Assembly (NCBI RefSeq): GCF_000260115.1
Contig: NZ_JH651379.1
Span: 1,178,001-1,242,000, forward strand
Length of the DNA: 64,000 bases
Direction of reading: 5' to 3'
DNA from: Galbibacter orientalis DSM 19592
GTDB taxonomy: Bacteria > Bacteroidota > Bacteroidia > Flavobacteriales > Flavobacteriaceae
Positions within the stretch are counted from its first letter, which is position 1. Every line of letters begins with the position of its first letter. This document shows, piece after piece, positions 30,823-36,740 of this stretch. Under the pieces are notes generated by a model that ran no database searches, was not told the origin of the DNA, and worked only from the letters and a program-made list of their open reading frames with translations. A program made the position numbers and the translations under genes.

Positions 30823-30844
30823 TTCCAACCACTAAAACTGTATC

Positions 30845-30888
30845 TTTTTTACCCGTCTTTTTAAAATAAATACACTTTTTTACTCACT
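30845..30888 (+). promoter_or_regulatory. Upstream activator motif pair of paralogue 1
   Basis: TTTTTTACCCGTC (A of the core at 30851) and TTTTTTACTCACT (A at 30882), 31 bases apart (three helical turns). The second core A lies 93 bases before the -24 GG, the same distance as in paralogues 2 and 3. Confidence 0.65.
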
Positions 30889-30972
30889 TATATTTTTCAT
30901 ATTTGGAATAGATTACTTATTAATCATCTGATTATCATTTAGTTAAATATTTATTGACTTCACATATTATAA

Positions 30973-30990
30973 TTGGTATAAAATTGGCTT
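30973..30990 (+). promoter_or_regulatory. Sigma-54 type -24/-12 promoter of paralogue 1
   Basis: TTGGTATAAAATTGGCTT has GG (30975-30976) and GC (30987-30988) separated by 10 bases, the invariant sigma-54 spacing. The ATG follows about 40 bases later. Confidence 0.7.
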
Positions 30991-31027
30991 TATACTAATT
31001 AGAAAAAAATTAAATAAAATATATAGT

Positions 31028-31330
31028 ATGAGAAAGTTAGCATTAGCATCAGCATTAGCACTAGGTAGTTTTGCATCGTTTGCAGCAACACCAGTAATTT
31101 TTCACGATGGAATTGCAGAAGAAATTTATGCAACGCAAGATGAATATGAAGAAATACAAGTAGCTGAAGTTCCTCAAGCTGTTTCAGGTGCACTGGCAGC
31201 AGATTTTCCAGGAGCTGAAATCTCGAAAGCATATAAAAATGAAGCCTCTGATTATAAATTAGAGGTTGCCGTTGGAGAAGAAATAGCAACTCTTTACGCT
31301 AATGAAAGTGGAGAGTGGATTCAAAAATAG
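31028..31330 (+). CDS. Small secreted PepSY-like protein, paralogue 1
   Basis: 100 residues. The signal peptide (MRKLALASALALGSFASFA) is followed by an acidic linker (ATQDEYEEIQVAEV). The C-terminal domain has the pattern VPQAVSGALAADFPGAEIS, KAYKNEASDYKLEV and a final LYANESGEWI, resembling PepSY-like (DUF2874-type) modules. It should act in the periplasm or outside. It has its own sigma-54 type promoter and its own terminator (31371-31396), so it is a single-gene unit. It is about 70% identical by eye to paralogue 2 in the mature domain. The function is unknown. Confidence 0.85.
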   Translation: MRKLALASALALGSFASFAATPVIFHDGIAEEIYATQDEYEEIQVAEVPQAVSGALAADFPGAEISKAYKNEASDYKLEVAVGEEIATLYANESGEWIQK

Positions 31331-31370
31331 AATGACATAAGCTTCGTTTATTTTAATTACGTTTGAAAAG

Positions 31371-31396
31371 GACTTGCCTTCGGGTGAGTCTTTTTT
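31371..31396 (+). terminator. Terminator of paralogue 1
   Basis: GACTTGCC-TTCG-GGTGAGTC: an 8-bp stem with two G-T pairs and a UUCG tetraloop, then T6. Confidence 0.85.
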
Positions 31397-31514
31397 ATGT
31401 TATAAAGTTACAGTAGTGTAATTTAGATTTACTCTGTACTCTTTTTCCTTGCAGTGAAGCAGTGATGATTCTTAATCTTGATACTTTTTTTTATAATTAT
31501 TTCTGTGTAAAACA

Positions 31515-31563
31515 GTGTATTTTTTACTCAGGAAACGGGGTGCTTACACATTGTTTACACACT
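31515..31563 (+). promoter_or_regulatory. Upstream activator motif cluster of paralogue 2
   Basis: Three cores: TTTTTTACTCA (A at 31526), TGCTTACACA (A at 31546) and TTGTTTACACAC (A at 31557). Spacings of 20 and 11 bases keep them on one helix face. The last lies 93 bases before the -24 GG. Confidence 0.65.
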
Positions 31564-31647
31564 TTATATTTTATTTGCATTCGCAATATCACATTTAACA
31601 ACCTGATTTTCAATTATTTAAATATTAACTTATCTAAGTTCATTTTT

Positions 31648-31665
31648 TTGGAACGAAGATGGTAC
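31648..31665 (+). promoter_or_regulatory. Sigma-54 type promoter of paralogue 2
   Basis: TTGGAACGAAGATGGTAC aligns without gaps with the paralogue 1 promoter and both continue into TATACTAAT. The -24 GG (31650-31651) is intact, but the -12 position reads GT instead of GC, so it may be weaker. Confidence 0.55.
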
Positions 31666-31712
31666 TATACTAATCAGAAATAAATTAGTATTAATCATAA
31701 AAACATATAATC

Positions 31713-32006
31713 ATGAAAAAGGTATTTTTAGTAGCAGCATTAGCATTAGGTAGTTTCGCAACATTTGCAGCAACACCAATAGTTTCTAATACAAACGGAA
31801 TCTATATGATTCAAGATGAATATCAAGAAATTGATGTGGCAGAAGTACCACAAGCAATTACAGATGCACTTGCAGCAGATTTCCCTGGAGCAACAATTTC
31901 TAAAGCATATAAAAATGATGCTTCAGAATATAAAATTGATGTAGCTGTTGGCGAAGAAACGACAACACTTTACGCAAACGAAAATGGAGAGTGGATACAG
32001 AAATAG
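31713..32006 (+). CDS. Small secreted PepSY-like protein, paralogue 2
   Basis: 97 residues: signal peptide MKKVFLVAALALGSFATFA, linker IQDEYQEIDVAE, then the shared domain (VPQAITDALAADFPGATIS, KAYKNDASEYKIDV, LYANENGEWIQK). It is closest to paralogue 1, and even the promoter-proximal 90 bases align between the two, suggesting a recent duplication of gene plus regulatory region. It has its own terminator at 32045-32076. The function is unknown. Confidence 0.85.
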   Translation: MKKVFLVAALALGSFATFAATPIVSNTNGIYMIQDEYQEIDVAEVPQAITDALAADFPGATISKAYKNDASEYKIDVAVGEETTTLYANENGEWIQK

Positions 32007-32044
32007 TAGCAAGTAAACTCCGTTTATTTTAATTACATTTGAGA

Positions 32045-32076
32045 GAAAGACTGTCTTTAAAGGCAGTCTTTTTTTA
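32045..32076 (+). terminator. Terminator of paralogue 2
   Basis: AAAGACTG/CAGTCTTT stem with a small loop, then T7. Confidence 0.85.
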
Positions 32077-32144
32077 TGGGGTTTTTTAAAGGGATGGAAT
32101 CTTATTTTATACCTAAAATAAAACATACATACTCTTAAAGAAAA

Positions 32145-32183
32145 GTGTACTTCTTACCCATTATTGTGTGCATATTACACACA
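32145..32183 (+). promoter_or_regulatory. Upstream activator motif pair of paralogue 3
   Basis: TTCTTACCCA (core A at 32156) and ATATTACACACA (A at 32177), 21 bases apart (two helical turns). The second is also half of the inverted repeat TGTGTG-N7-CACACA. Distance of the second core A to the -24 GG is again 93. Confidence 0.65.
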
Positions 32184-32267
32184 TTTTCACAGATAATAGG
32201 TATTTGTTTTTTTATGAAAAGAACCATAATAACTGATAGTTAGGTGGTTATGTATGTGTTCTTGTTT

Positions 32268-32285
32268 TTGGTATAGAATTGGCTT
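32268..32285 (+). promoter_or_regulatory. Sigma-54 type promoter of paralogue 3
   Basis: TTGGTATAGAATTGGCTT differs from the paralogue 1 promoter at one position. GG (32270-32271) and GC (32282-32283) are separated by 10 bases. Confidence 0.7.
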
Positions 32286-32333
32286 TTAATAAAGTAAGTA
32301 TTTAAAAGAAGTTTAATATAAAATAAAGAAGAT

Positions 32334-32639
32334 ATGAAAAAGTTAATTTTAGCATCAGTTATAGCATTAGGAAGTTTTACAACATTTGCAGCAGTTCCAG
32401 TAATTTCTAATAATGATTTTGTAGAAACAGTATATGTAGATCAGGATGATTATACTCCTATAGACGCTACAGAATTACCTGACGCAATTACAAATGCATT
32501 GGAGACAGATTTTCCAGGAGTTCAAGTTTCAAAGGCTTTTAAAAATGAAGCGGATGAATATAAAATTCAAGTATTGGTAGGAGATAAAACAACCAATTTG
32601 TATGCTACTAAAGATGGGGAGTGGATTCAGAATAAATAA
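32334..32639 (+). CDS. Small secreted PepSY-like protein, paralogue 3
   Basis: 101 residues. Signal peptide MKKLILASVIALGSFTTFA, linker VDQDDYTPIDATE, then LPDAITNALETDFPGVQVS, KAFKNEADEYKIQV and LYATKDGEWIQNK. It is more diverged than paralogues 1 and 2 but has the same length, motif order and control elements. A terminator at 32807-32834 separates it from the activator gene. The function is unknown; the three may be doses or variants of one envelope-stress or surface component. Confidence 0.85.
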   Translation: MKKLILASVIALGSFTTFAAVPVISNNDFVETVYVDQDDYTPIDATELPDAITNALETDFPGVQVSKAFKNEADEYKIQVLVGDKTTNLYATKDGEWIQNK

Positions 32640-32806
32640 TAATTAGTAGTATTGAGAACAAACAATACACTCAAGTTTACTCTATAATTGAGATTAGAAC
32701 ATTTTGAATTTAAATCCCTCCTAATTTTTCTTGAGGTTACTAAAAAATGAGTGATAGTAATACAAAAATCAACACTTAGCGTGTAAAACAAAGTCATATT
32801 TTGTTT

Positions 32807-32893: not shown

Positions 32894-34258
32894 ATGCCAA
32901 ATATCCTATTGATAGAAGATGATGTTACTTTTTCGGCGATGCTGGAACGTTTTTTAAAGAAAAACGGTTTTTCAGTAGAAGCTAGTTATTCGTCGGAAGA
33001 AGCGCAAAAAAAACTTTCCAATACTAAATACGATTTGGTATTTACCGATTTGAGATTGCCAGACGATGATGGAATTTCTATTTTGACAAAAGTTAAAGAA
33101 AAACATCCTGAAACTCCTGTTATTTTAATGACTGGATATGCAGAGGTTTCTACCGCTGTAAAAGCTATGAAAAAGGGCGCTTTTGATTATATTTCAAAAC
33201 CTTTTAATCAAGATGAAGTACTTATTGTAATTCAAAATGCTTTAAAAGGAGATAATCAGCAAAAACAAAAATCTACTGAAGCTGGAGCTACTCCACAAGC
33301 AAAGGCTGAAAAAAAGAAAGAAGCTTTTCCTAAAAAAGCAGTTACAGGAATTAGTAGTGCCTCAACAAAACTTAATGAGTATATAAAACTAGTGGCTCCT
33401 ACCGATATGTCTGTTTTAATTATGGGAGATAGCGGAACGGGGAAAGAAGTGGTAGCAAAAAGAATTCACGACAATAGTAGTCGAAAAGATTTTAGCTTTA
33501 TTGCGGTAGATTGCGGAGCTATTCCAAAGGAAATTGCGGCAAGCGAATTTTTTGGTCATGTAAAAGGCTCTTTTACTGGTGCTGTAAACAATAAGATTGG
33601 ACATTTTGAGGCTGCAAATGGAGGAACTATTTTTTTAGATGAAGTGGGGAATTTATCTTATGAAAATCAAATTCAGTTATTAAGAGCTCTTCAAGAGCGA
33701 AAAATCAAACCGATAGGAAGTAATCAAGAGATTGAGGTTGATATTAGATTGATTACAGCTACTAATGAAGATTTATTACAAGCTGTTGAAAAAGGACAAT
33801 TTAGAGAAGATCTTTATCACCGATTGAACGAATTTACCATTAAAGTGCCTAATTTATACGAGCGAAAAGAAGATTTGCTCATTTTTGCAGACCATTTTTT
33901 GAATATGGCAAATGAGCAGCTTAATAAAAATGTATTAGGATTTTCTGATGAAGTGATTACAATTTTTCAGCAATATAAATGGCCAGGAAATTTACGAGAA
34001 ATGTCCAATGTAATAAAAAGATCGGCATTACTTACGCAAGGAGATTTGATTGAAAAATCGGTTTTGCCAATGGAACTTACAAATCCACCAAAAGAAAATC
34101 AGCATATAAAATCTTTTTCTACAAAAGATAATGAGCGCGACTTAATTATAAATGCGTTAAATGAAGTAGGAAATAATAAATCTAAAGCCGCAAGATTACT
34201 TAATATTACTCGCAAAACACTTTATAATAAAATTAAAGAGTACGAAATAGAAGCATAG
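32894..34258 (+). CDS. NtrC-family sigma-54 dependent response regulator
   Basis: 454 residues from ATG 32894; an earlier in-frame ATG at 32801 lies inside the previous terminator and is rejected. The receiver domain has the acidic pair in LIEDDV, the phospho-acceptor Asp in VFTDLRLPD (about 53) and SKPF Lys. The AAA+ domain has Walker A GDSGTGKE (about 178), the sigma-54 contact loop GSFTGA (about 225) and Walker B TIFLDEVG. The C-terminus is a Fis-type helix-turn-helix (NKSKAARLLNITRKTLYNKI). It is the likely activator of the three sigma-54 type promoters just upstream. Confidence 0.93.
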   Translation: MPNILLIEDDVTFSAMLERFLKKNGFSVEASYSSEEAQKKLSNTKYDLVFTDLRLPDDDGISILTKVKEKHPETPVILMTGYAEVSTAVKAMKKGAFDYISKPFNQDEVLIVIQNALKGDNQQKQKSTEAGATPQAKAEKKKEAFPKKAVTGISSASTKLNEYIKLVAPTDMSVLIMGDSGTGKEVVAKRIHDNSSRKDFSFIAVDCGAIPKEIAASEFFGHVKGSFTGAVNNKIGHFEAANGGTIFLDEVGNLSYENQIQLLRALQERKIKPIGSNQEIEVDIRLITATNEDLLQAVEKGQFREDLYHRLNEFTIKVPNLYERKEDLLIFADHFLNMANEQLNKNVLGFSDEVITIFQQYKWPGNLREMSNVIKRSALLTQGDLIEKSVLPMELTNPPKENQHIKSFSTKDNERDLIINALNEVGNNKSKAARLLNITRKTLYNKIKEYEIEA

Positions 34259-34274: not shown

Positions 34275-36740
34275 TTACTTGTTGTTTTTAAGATGCTTAT
34301 CGATAGCCGAAAAAGTTAGTTTTATATTCTTTTTTAAAGCTTTGTAATTAGAGGGTAATTGCTTTTTCTCTTCATCTTTGAAATGCTCTAAAAAATTAAG
34401 GATAGGCACCACTGTTTGTGCATCTATTTGCTTAAACATAGTTTGCATTTTGTGAGCTATTTTTCGGATTTCCTCTAAATTTTCTTTCGCTATATACGTT
34501 TTTAAATCTTTTAGGTCTTTAGAAGTATTCTCTTTAAACACCTCTAAGATGTCTAACATGGCTTCGTCATCACTCAAAAAAGAACTTAAAGAGGAAAGAT
34601 CAAAAAGGGTATTTTTTTTGATAGTTGTCTCCGTTTCTTCTTCATTTTCAGCAGTTTCTTGCGTGTTATCTAAAACTTTAGAAATTTTGTGTAGTAAAGA
34701 TTTTGGCTCATAAGGCTTGAATAAAAATTCGGCAAATCCAGCTTCTAGATAACTTTTTTTATTAAGATCTTTTCTTCCTGTAACAGCAATAATTGGTTGG
34801 TTGTTATATCCGTATTGTTTATCAGAACGTAAGGTTTCAGCAAAATAAAATCCGTTAAAAGATGGTAATTGAATATCGGTTACAATAAAATCATATTCAA
34901 TACTTTTAATCTTATCAAGCGCTTTTTTACCACTATCAAAAGCAAATACTTTAAAATTATTTTTTTCTAGAATTTCTTTATTTAGTTTCAGGAGCGTTTC
35001 ATCATCATCTATAACAATAGCAGTGTATTTTTTATTGAGAATAGTAAAATCGGGATTTTCAACATTTTTTATAATCACATCTTTACTGCTAAATTTTGCA
35101 GGAAAAACAAATGAAAAAGTACTACCTTTTCCTTCTTTACTTTCTAAATATAAACTTCCGCCCAATAACGAAGCAAGCTTTCTAGAAATAGTTAACCCTA
35201 GTCCGCTTCCTCCATATTTTTTTTCGGTGTTACCGTCGGCTTGTGTAAACTCTTCAAAAATAATATGTTGCTTTTCTTTTTTAATTCCTATCCCAGTATC
35301 AATAACAGAAATAGAAATTAACTGTTCATTTTCGCTTGTAGTTTTTAATCTTACTTTAACGGTTATACTCCCTTCTTCTGTAAATTTATAGGCATTCCCT
35401 ATGAGGTTTGATAAAATTTGTTTTACTCGGAAGGGATCTCCTATTAAATGTTTATTTATTGATTTGTCGATGTCAATTATCAGATTTATATTTTTTGCAC
35501 TATAGATAGATTGTACACCTTCTGCAGTTTCCGTAATTAGGGTATTCAGATTAAAAGCTACGTGTTCAATATTAATTTTTCCAGCTTCTAGTTTTGTAAA
35601 ATCTAGTAAATCATCAACCAATTGTGTAACATAGCTAGAAGCATTTTTTATACGGTCAGTATAATGAGATTCTTTTTCGTTCAAATTGGCATCTTTAAGA
35701 AGTTCGGTATACCCCAAAATTGTACTTAAAGGAGTTCTTAAGTCGTGACTAACCATAGAAATAAGCTGTTCCCTGCTTTTTACTAAAAGTTTATTATGCT
35801 CATTAGAATCTTCAATTTGCCTTTTGTATTGCTGACTTCGCCAGGAATCTCTTAAAATAATAATTGAAAAAACAATCACTAAAATCGCACCAATAATGGC
35901 TGCAATTGTAATAACCTTAATGCTTCGCTGAAGTACACGCTCTCTTTCAACATTTAATATACGGGCATTATTTACAAATTCGTTTTCAAAAGCCGTTAGT
36001 ATTTGACGTAATTGTTGAGAAGTAGTGAGGTCGTTTCTTAGTAATTGGCGCTCTTTAATTGCCAAAGAAAGCTTTTGTGTTGAGGCTTTTTCTTTTACAT
36101 TTTGAAGCATTTCTCTAGAAGCAGTAACAATAGAATCTAGGGTTCGTTCATCAACAGAATTACTGGAGTCTCTAGGAATATATCTATTATTAATAGCAAT
36201 AAATTCTAATAGCTTTTTCTTTGTTTCAAGATCTAAACTATCGGGGTTTGCTACAAAATCTTTTAAGGAAAGTCGCCCTAGTTGATCTTCTATATTTGAA
36301 AGTTTTTCAATAGCACTTTCAATTGTTTTTTCAGAGGTGTCGTTAATCCTAAGCTCTCTAAGTTCGTTGATGTTCTTTATTTTCTGCTGAAGTAAAAAAT
36401 TAACACTATCTAGTAATTTGGATTGATATGGCTGATTTATAATTTGTTTTAAGGAATCTATTTGTATGGAAATAGAGTCATTCTTCCGAAGAAAACTTAC
36501 ATAAGGTTGTTGAGAATTTGATTGAATAGCCGAACGCGCAAAGCTTTCACTTTCGTACATAAGAGTAAGGAGTTTACCTATACGAAGGATCTTATTTTTC
36601 TCAATAGTTTCATCTTTTTGCGCTTGGGTAAAAGAACTTATCTCTTGATATACCAACCAACCAACAATTACAACTAGAGAAACCAAAGCTAAATAGCTCA
36701 GCAATACTTTTAAAGGGATTCTGCTCTTCGAATTTTCCAT
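34275..36740 (-). CDS. Hybrid histidine kinase with receiver and HPt domains
   Basis: 821 residues. Membrane helix (about 10-28), an external helical sensor region to about 275, and a second helix (about 276-296). Then HisKA with SHDLRTPLS (His about 330), HATPase_c with NAYKF, DTGIGI and GSGLGL, a receiver domain (DDDE, Asp in IVTDIQLP near 622) and an HPt domain (RKIAHKMQTMF near 760). All phosphorelay steps are therefore in one chain. It is convergent with the NtrC-type regulator, 16 bases apart, and is probably its partner. The signal sensed is unknown. Confidence 0.92.
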   Translation of the reverse strand: MENSKSRIPLKVLLSYLALVSLVVIVGWLVYQEISSFTQAQKDETIEKNKILRIGKLLTLMYESESFARSAIQSNSQQPYVSFLRKNDSISIQIDSLKQIINQPYQSKLLDSVNFLLQQKIKNINELRELRINDTSEKTIESAIEKLSNIEDQLGRLSLKDFVANPDSLDLETKKKLLEFIAINNRYIPRDSSNSVDERTLDSIVTASREMLQNVKEKASTQKLSLAIKERQLLRNDLTTSQQLRQILTAFENEFVNNARILNVERERVLQRSIKVITIAAIIGAILVIVFSIIILRDSWRSQQYKRQIEDSNEHNKLLVKSREQLISMVSHDLRTPLSTILGYTELLKDANLNEKESHYTDRIKNASSYVTQLVDDLLDFTKLEAGKINIEHVAFNLNTLITETAEGVQSIYSAKNINLIIDIDKSINKHLIGDPFRVKQILSNLIGNAYKFTEEGSITVKVRLKTTSENEQLISISVIDTGIGIKKEKQHIIFEEFTQADGNTEKKYGGSGLGLTISRKLASLLGGSLYLESKEGKGSTFSFVFPAKFSSKDVIIKNVENPDFTILNKKYTAIVIDDDETLLKLNKEILEKNNFKVFAFDSGKKALDKIKSIEYDFIVTDIQLPSFNGFYFAETLRSDKQYGYNNQPIIAVTGRKDLNKKSYLEAGFAEFLFKPYEPKSLLHKISKVLDNTQETAENEEETETTIKKNTLFDLSSLSSFLSDDEAMLDILEVFKENTSKDLKDLKTYIAKENLEEIRKIAHKMQTMFKQIDAQTVVPILNFLEHFKDEEKKQLPSNYKALKKNIKLTFSAIDKHLKNNK

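Follow-up and report, generated by a model that had tools for sequence, protein, structure and literature searches.

A probable two-component system with a very small sigma-54-type regulon of PepSY-like genes in Galbibacter orientalis

ZraP of Escherichia coli is a small periplasmic protein. In the ZraSR-ZraP system, the response regulator is sigma-54-dependent, has a tiny regulon and activates this chaperone in connection with envelope stress (PMC7657598). In Flavobacterium psychrophilum, the -24/-12 promoters of a sigma-54 regulon (motif SM4) have been mapped by 5'-end sequencing and precede genes for chaperones and protein quality control, envelope stress, gliding and exported proteins (PMC9723704). 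The sigma-54 activators of Bacteroidota have few assigned targets, and the F. psychrophilum map, in the portion of the paper considered here, assigns none (PMC9723704). As for PepSY-like proteins, the paper on the structure of BVU2987 suggests a possible inhibitory role (PMC2954215), and BT0922 and BT0923 of B. thetaiotaomicron appear with values of 3.7 and 5.0 in iron-regulation tables, with p for the locus between 8E-05 and 0.074 (PMC10434189).

The window analysed here is a stretch of 64 kb from the 4.5-Mb genome (two contigs) of Galbibacter orientalis DSM 19592. It carries in tandem three genes for small secreted PepSY-like proteins: paralogue 1 (100 aa; 31028..31330, + strand), an open reading frame supported by a genome-wide family search, paralogue 2 (97 aa; 31713..32006, +) and paralogue 3 (101 aa; 32334..32639, +). 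The signal peptides of all three were recognized by reading only. On their 3' side lie a gene for an NtrC-type response regulator (32894..34258, +) and, convergent with it, one for a hybrid histidine kinase (34275..36740, -). The regulator passes the cut-offs of PF00072, PF00158 and PF02954, corresponding to a receiver, a sigma-54 activator AAA+ domain and a Fis-type helix-turn-helix (HTH). Its sigma-54 loop reads GSFTGA, and such a loop is present in all 130 aligned regulators (GSFTGA in 120, GAFTGA in 10). The kinase combines HisKA, HATPase, receiver and Hpt-like domains, the last scoring below its cut-off; the N-terminal sensor part is helical, with membrane helices assigned by reading only, and its single-sequence structural prediction is almost entirely helix (mean pLDDT 71) and indicates no ligand. 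We consider it very probable that this locus encodes a two-component system together with a very small sigma-54 regulon of PepSY-like genes.

The same gene order recurs, complete or in part, in many of the 60 stretches surrounding PepSY-like matches in genomes of the family: SAH hydrolase, phosphopantetheinyl transferase, a small ORF, PnuC, NadR and DUF4301, then one to five PepSY-like genes, the regulator, the kinase and a TonB receptor. The order was matched at named loci, for example in Robertkochia, Kriegella and Aequorivita; the flanking genes are what we take them to be from reading their sequences alone. Paralogues 1 and 2 share 71% identity, and their upstream DNA, the likeness of which had been noticed before, can be aligned; paralogue 3 is 52% identical to paralogue 1.

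Each paralogue is preceded by a sigma-54-type -24/-12 element on the + strand, namely TTGGTATAAAATTGGC (30973..30988, GG at 30975), TTGGAACGAAGATGGT (31648..31663, GG at 31650; the weakest, at 6.1 bits) and TTGGTATAGAATTGGC (32268..32283, GG at 32270). The earlier note had described TTGG-N10-G(C/T) before each gene, and its coordinates were confirmed, the -12 dinucleotides being GC, GT and GC. By itself TTGG-N10-GC has 41 matches in the window, 25 on the forward and 16 on the reverse strand, so the lone pattern is not above chance; the longer TTGG-N8-TGGC occurs three times there, twice at these promoters. We then turned to relatives. Out of 154 gene starts, 140 were kept after removal of those with fewer than 400 upstream bases, a model score below 60 or a duplicate upstream region; 17 of them, which follow another copy at a distance of under 150 bp, were classed as operon-internal, and the other 123 entered the motif search. 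Expectation-maximisation on these 123 upstream regions yielded the -24/-12 consensus tTGGYAYnaTwwTTtC, which exceeded the shuffled 99th percentile at 115 of the 123 genes with upstream DNA of their own and at none of the 17 operon-internal copies, the latter being the cleaner control because it was the 123 that had served to train the matrix. Promoter 2 of the window belongs to the eight that fall below this limit.

In textbook sigma-54 promoters the -12 GC is nearly invariant. Among the 118 promoters scoring at least 8.5, the -12 dinucleotide was TC in 84, CC in 12, GC in nine, CT in seven, and GT and AC in three each, and TTTC stood at -12 in 77. The GC or GT reported at -12 describes the window and its genus (GC at 12 and GT at nine of 21 promoters), whereas outside the genus TTTC prevails. 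A strict canonical search, for TGG-N10-G(C/T) preceded by T/A and T/G, found few matches outside the genus of the window, which, taken alone, would count against the sigma-54 idea; reading of the sequences and the de novo search reveal that the -24 is conserved there and that the -12 differs. The canonical TTGGCACG...TTTGC or TTTTGC is seen at some Bacteroidales loci (L068, L069, L070, L079). The presence of rpoN, on which the earlier claim depended, was verified by a single match in this genome, and the gene was found in 199 of 199 family genomes.

The putative activator element is the palindrome TGTGTAA-N3-TTACACA accompanied by half-sites; it was recovered de novo as TGTGTAAattTTACACA without use of position, and dyads were sought within 300 bp upstream of the -24 at 117 promoters. 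Promoter 1 has an imperfect dyad at 30839..30855 (+; centre 128 bp before the GG, 10.0 bits) and the proximal half-site TTACTCA at 30880..30886 (+). Promoter 2 has an imperfect dyad at 31514..31530 (+; centre likewise at 128 bp, 11.8 bits), an extra half-site TTACACA at 31544..31550 (+), whose A lies 104 bp before the GG, and the proximal half-site TTACACA at 31555..31561 (+). At promoter 3, an imperfect distal dyad (32144..32160, +; centre at 118 bp, 13.5 bits) is followed by an imperfect proximal dyad, TGTGTGCATATTACACA (32165..32181, +; centre at 97 bp, 16.8 bits), which includes the half-site TTACACA. The 93-bp distance claimed for the three promoters was exact, the A at 30882, 31557 and 32177 each lying 93 bp before the -24 GG. 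The TTwAC-type copies seen earlier do exist, but the element is a dyad, and what had been seen were its right halves. With 10.0-16.8 bits, the dyads of the window are weak compared with scores of up to 23.8 elsewhere.

At 110 of the 117 promoters the best dyad scores above 9 bits, and the distance from its centre to the -24 GG falls into one of three classes, 97-109, 115-120 or 127-133 bp; no dyad above 9 bits is centred at 110-114 or 121-126 bp. The remaining seven comprise two promoters without a site, one with a site at 208 bp and four with weak dyads, two of which, at 112 and 114 bp, fall within the otherwise empty gap. Smoothing of the 110 distances by 5 bp erases the steps (the periodicity score is 0.71 for the real distances and never exceeds 0.30 across 2000 smoothed sets), and the step is closer to 12 than to 10.5 bp. 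The consensus of the 112-122 class shows an additional half-site 20 bp downstream. Activation by NtrC and sigma-54 has been described as depending on the face of the helix (PMC7408454). The 93-bp spacing also occurs outside the window: half-sites of the TTAC type 92-94 bp before the GG form the commonest class, with 37 of the 158 found at 60-160 bp, and only seven such half-sites occur at 160-260 bp (117 promoters). Close relatives with the genes have for the most part retained both motif and spacing: among the 17 genes with a -24 element in the six other species of the genus, all 17 have a dyad of at least 8.9 bits, and a half-site lies at 92-95 bp in 13, the exceptions being L120, L238 at 5869, L242 at 6328 and L244 at 6274, the last of these copies containing an in-frame stop. 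At L324 an odd distance of 64 bp separates the dyad from the best match to the -24.

A genome-wide scan of the kind proposed earlier as a check, here for the composite TTACNCA-N75..104-TTGGNAYN5TRGY, gave five matches at four promoters, all before PepSY-like genes: the three promoters of the window and one at genome position 2,155,018. The reversed composite had no match in the 4.5-Mb genome. Since the pattern was written after the sites had been seen, the informative part of this result is that nothing else matched. Behind the fourth promoter lies a second locus of the same genome (L119), with two PepSY-like copies. In this genome the composite thus stands only before PepSY-like genes, and the regulon takes in this second locus as well as the three tandem genes. 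The dyad alone (up to two mismatches) gave 199 forward matches against 163 in the control and was uninformative, and a version with TYC at -12 matched once, compared with two control matches. For TTGGYAYN5TTKC there were 34 matches and 22 control matches, and no wider sigma-54 regulon can be read from such a scan. Across the 199 family genomes, the dyad followed after 85-115 bp by TGGYAY had 27 matches in 22 genomes (control, 14); 21 lie directly upstream of PepSY-like genes (among them three in which one palindrome was read a second time in mirror image), another lies about 600 bp upstream of such a gene and five lie elsewhere. As these five are no more than chance would give, a site that precedes an efflux-adaptor-like gene in G089 is a lead only.

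The assignment of the dyad to the neighbouring regulator draws on a comparison of 74 loci having both a regulator and a dyad above 9 bits, over 454 alignment columns. Residue 439 lies in the HTH and adjoins RKTLYNK on its N-terminal side. With TGTGTAA dyads (60 of the 74 loci) it is Thr in 55, Ser in three and Asn in two; with TGTGGAA dyads, or one such half, it is Asp at all 14 loci. Counted per promoter, at least one G/C half was present with Asp in 17 of 17 cases and in none of 85 others. Residue 439 alone separates the two site classes completely and has the highest mutual information of the 454 columns. On a regulator tree built without the HTH, residue and site type each change three times. 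The species are related and not independent, and the switch has only about three origins. A scan allowing either base added seven Asp loci, all of the G/C type (L047, L064, L067, L068, L070, L074, L079), which contribute few independent origins because all are Bacteroidales-type. L321 (Asp, one G/C half) and G089 (Ala at L319 with a T/A site at L296) agree with the pairing, and L324 has Thr with a T/A site; L320 and L324 were taken as the same records as L038 and L023 and not counted as new.

The PepSY-like family occurs in 58 of the 199 family genomes, and an orthologous regulator (E<=1e-120) in 59; in the genus of the window, 7/7 genomes have the PepSY-like family. Both are found together in 55 genomes (Fisher p 2e-40, a value that ignores relatedness). 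Among the best 80 loci listed in the regulator search, 37 have a PepSY-like match, one of them doubtful (L078, a 334-aa ORF scoring 8 bits). Of the 60 stretches around PepSY-like matches, 49 contain the regulator, and the gene order is the same in most of these. Four genomes (G022, G023, G041, G089) have the regulator without a family match at E<=0.001; in G041 a wider model found a PepSY-like gene adjoining the regulator. Three gene-bearing genomes have no regulator, and one of these, G119, is cut by a contig end. The other two, G086 and G176, have kept the PepSY-like gene and its neighbourhood, with the TonB receptor after the gene; the orthologous regulator is absent genome-wide, no regulator or kinase match was found in the fetched stretch, and the upstream region of the gene lacks both the -24/-12 element (scores of -3.8 and -1.8 bits) and the dyad (scores of -5.0 and -4.2 bits). 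Co-occurrence, residue-site covariation and this joint absence support the neighbouring NtrC-type regulator as the likely activator of the paralogues.

Could another DNA-binding protein occupy the dyad, the NtrC-type neighbour regulating something else? Such an explanation would fit the 11 of 60 stretches in which genes and regulator are not neighbours (including L119 and G030, where gene and regulator are on different contigs) and the three of 58 gene-bearing genomes from which the regulator is missing. However, the pairing of an HTH residue with the site type at 74 of 74 loci, and the lack of the sites in the two regulator-less genomes not cut by a contig end, make it very improbable. We judge it just as improbable that the -24/-12-like element is the promoter of an ECF factor or of a sigma-A variant, an idea raised by the lack of conservation of the -12 G and by TTTC at that position in 77 of 118 promoters. 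Against it stand TGGYAY at a fixed spacing, an AAA+ activator with a loop of the sigma-54 type, the distance of over 90 bp at which the upstream sites lie, and the canonical elements of the four Bacteroidales loci; moreover, the sigma-A boxes of F. psychrophilum read TAnnTTTG and are separate from the -24/-12 motif (PMC9723704). Least probable of all is that the common 93-bp geometry merely reflects a recent duplication of promoter DNA. The likeness of paralogues 1 and 2 and of their upstream regions would be expected from such an event, but the spacing classes recur across the sampled genera, with the same intervals free of dyads above 9 bits and with 92-94 bp as the commonest half-site class, and the idea is largely refuted.

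All three products miss the gathering cut-off of PF11396 (PepSY_like; 28.3 bits), with 16.6 bits (E = 0.01), 22.1 bits (E = 1.9e-4) and 16.9 bits (E = 0.008) for paralogues 1, 2 and 3. The family is matched at E<=0.001 by 19 of 44 relatives, and a profile built from these 44 finds 3due with E=1.7e-8. The AlphaFold model of paralogue 2 (pLDDT of about 90 in its second half) gives weak matches to the PDB (E 0.006-0.13), eight of the top nine being DUF2874, BLIP-like, calcium-binding or -regulated, or putative periplasmic chains, all eight from Bacteroides or Parabacteroides. By analogy with ZraSR-ZraP, the products may be periplasmic effectors of envelope stress that would also damp the kinase, a proposal to which we give somewhat less than even chances. 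The main alternative, to which we attach the same tentative weight, is that regulation is the same but without feedback, the PepSY-like proteins inhibiting or buffering a periplasmic enzyme, protease or ligand. The weak fold matches to DUF2874 and BLIP-like proteins and the inhibitory function proposed as possible for BVU2987 (PMC2954215) speak for it; nothing decisive speaks against it, although the tight tie between regulator and genes suggests feedback.

With the NtrC-type neighbour as activator, the hybrid kinase would sense something in the envelope and phosphorylate the regulator, which would bind TGTGTAA-N3-TTACACA and nearby half-sites about 93-130 bp upstream. With its AAA+ domain the regulator would open the sigma-54 RNA polymerase at the separate promoter of every paralogue, and the tandem promoters would yield small secreted PepSY-like proteins. 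Comparison of sequences shows the two motifs, the steps in their spacing, the residue-site pairing, the co-occurrence and the joint absence; it is from knowledge of these families that we infer the phosphorylation step, the use of sigma-54 and activation by looping. Counting against this explanation are the poorly conserved -12 G, the weak dyads of the window, promoter 2 with only 6.1 bits, the seven of 117 promoters outside the spacing classes, the 64 bp of L324, the 11 of 60 stretches without a regulator nearby, and G030. Should it hold, one activator gains a likely operator, a spacing rule, a one-residue recognition pairing and a short target list in this genome, and some members of a periplasmic protein family gain a regulatory context.

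In some Bacteroidaceae (L067, L070, L074) the genes behind a dyad and promoter of the same type encode lipoproteins of 283-307 aa, so the output seems to vary between lineages. We see an even chance that these systems form a Bacteroidota-wide module of sigma-54 envelope signalling, in which the HTH residue sets the operator (Thr, Ser, Asn or, once, Ala for T:A; Asp for G:C), enhancer positions follow steps of about 12 bp, and lineages have exchanged the output gene, with PepSY-like proteins in Flavobacteriaceae and lipoproteins in some Bacteroidaceae. If true, this module would be a natural experiment on the co-evolution of operator, activator and loop geometry.

The components of the system are of known kinds. 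A dedicated sigma-54 regulon of PepSY-like proteins is not known to have been described, and none was found in open-access full text; within that literature there appears to be no account of the regulon, of the recognition pairing or of the stepped spacing. The DUF2874/PepSY_like (PF11396) periplasmic proteins of Bacteroides resemble the products in weak sequence and fold similarity, whereas the three proteins of the window remain below the Pfam cut-off and are shorter than the solved chains (at least 127 aa); the part of the BVU2987 paper considered here describes no regulation (PMC2954215). The SM4 regulon of F. psychrophilum belongs to the same bacterial family as the window; in the portion of that paper used here its activators are unassigned, and the selection in Table 2 includes unnamed exported proteins and names no PepSY-like gene (PMC9723704). 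The closest likeness in regulatory logic is to ZraSR-ZraP, with its sigma-54-dependent response regulator and tiny regulon. The regulator of the window reaches 380 bits against the NCBIfam equivalog cut-off of 760 bits for ZraR, and on this sequence comparison the system is not a member of ZraSR-ZraP; it differs in having a different periplasmic protein family, a hybrid kinase and several tandem target promoters.

The dyad centre lies near 105, 117 or 129 bp from the −24 GG in 110 of the 117 promoters, and the step of approximately 12 bp between these classes exceeds the 10.5 bp of B-DNA. In a sister species, a PepSY-like copy interrupted by an in-frame TAG (L244, G203:C19:131942-132238) has its sole half-site at 72 bp from the −24 GG, compared with 93 bp at the three window promoters.

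A second locus in the genome of the window carries two further PepSY-like genes (L119:6179-6902, corresponding to G000:C1:2155178-2155898). A dyad and promoter precede only the first of these, and no regulator gene was found around them within the 13 kb fetched.

In three loci of Bacteroidaceae (L067, L070 and L074), genes of lipoproteins of 283–307 aa are adjoined by Asp-type regulators and preceded by TTGGCACG-type promoters, each located 109 bp downstream of a perfect TGTGGAA-N3-TTCCACA dyad. Genome G089 encodes the regulator, and no PepSY-like gene was found in it. A dyad with a close −24/−12 match lies there 5′ of an efflux-adaptor-like lipoprotein gene (L296, G089:C49:3383-3504, minus strand); in the scan that yielded this site, matches outside PepSY-like targets were at chance level.

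A receiver-less sigma-54 activator gene (L288:9116-10387, minus strand) is located near groES-groEL, and a TGGCATTTTTATTTT element (L288:7269, minus strand) lies approximately 190 bp before groES, these names being assigned by reading. A near-canonical TTGGCACAGCTATTGT (L287:11104, plus strand) lies between another NtrC-type gene of the same genome and the gene that follows it. The sigma-54 list reported for F. psychrophilum has groESL among its entries (PMC9723704).
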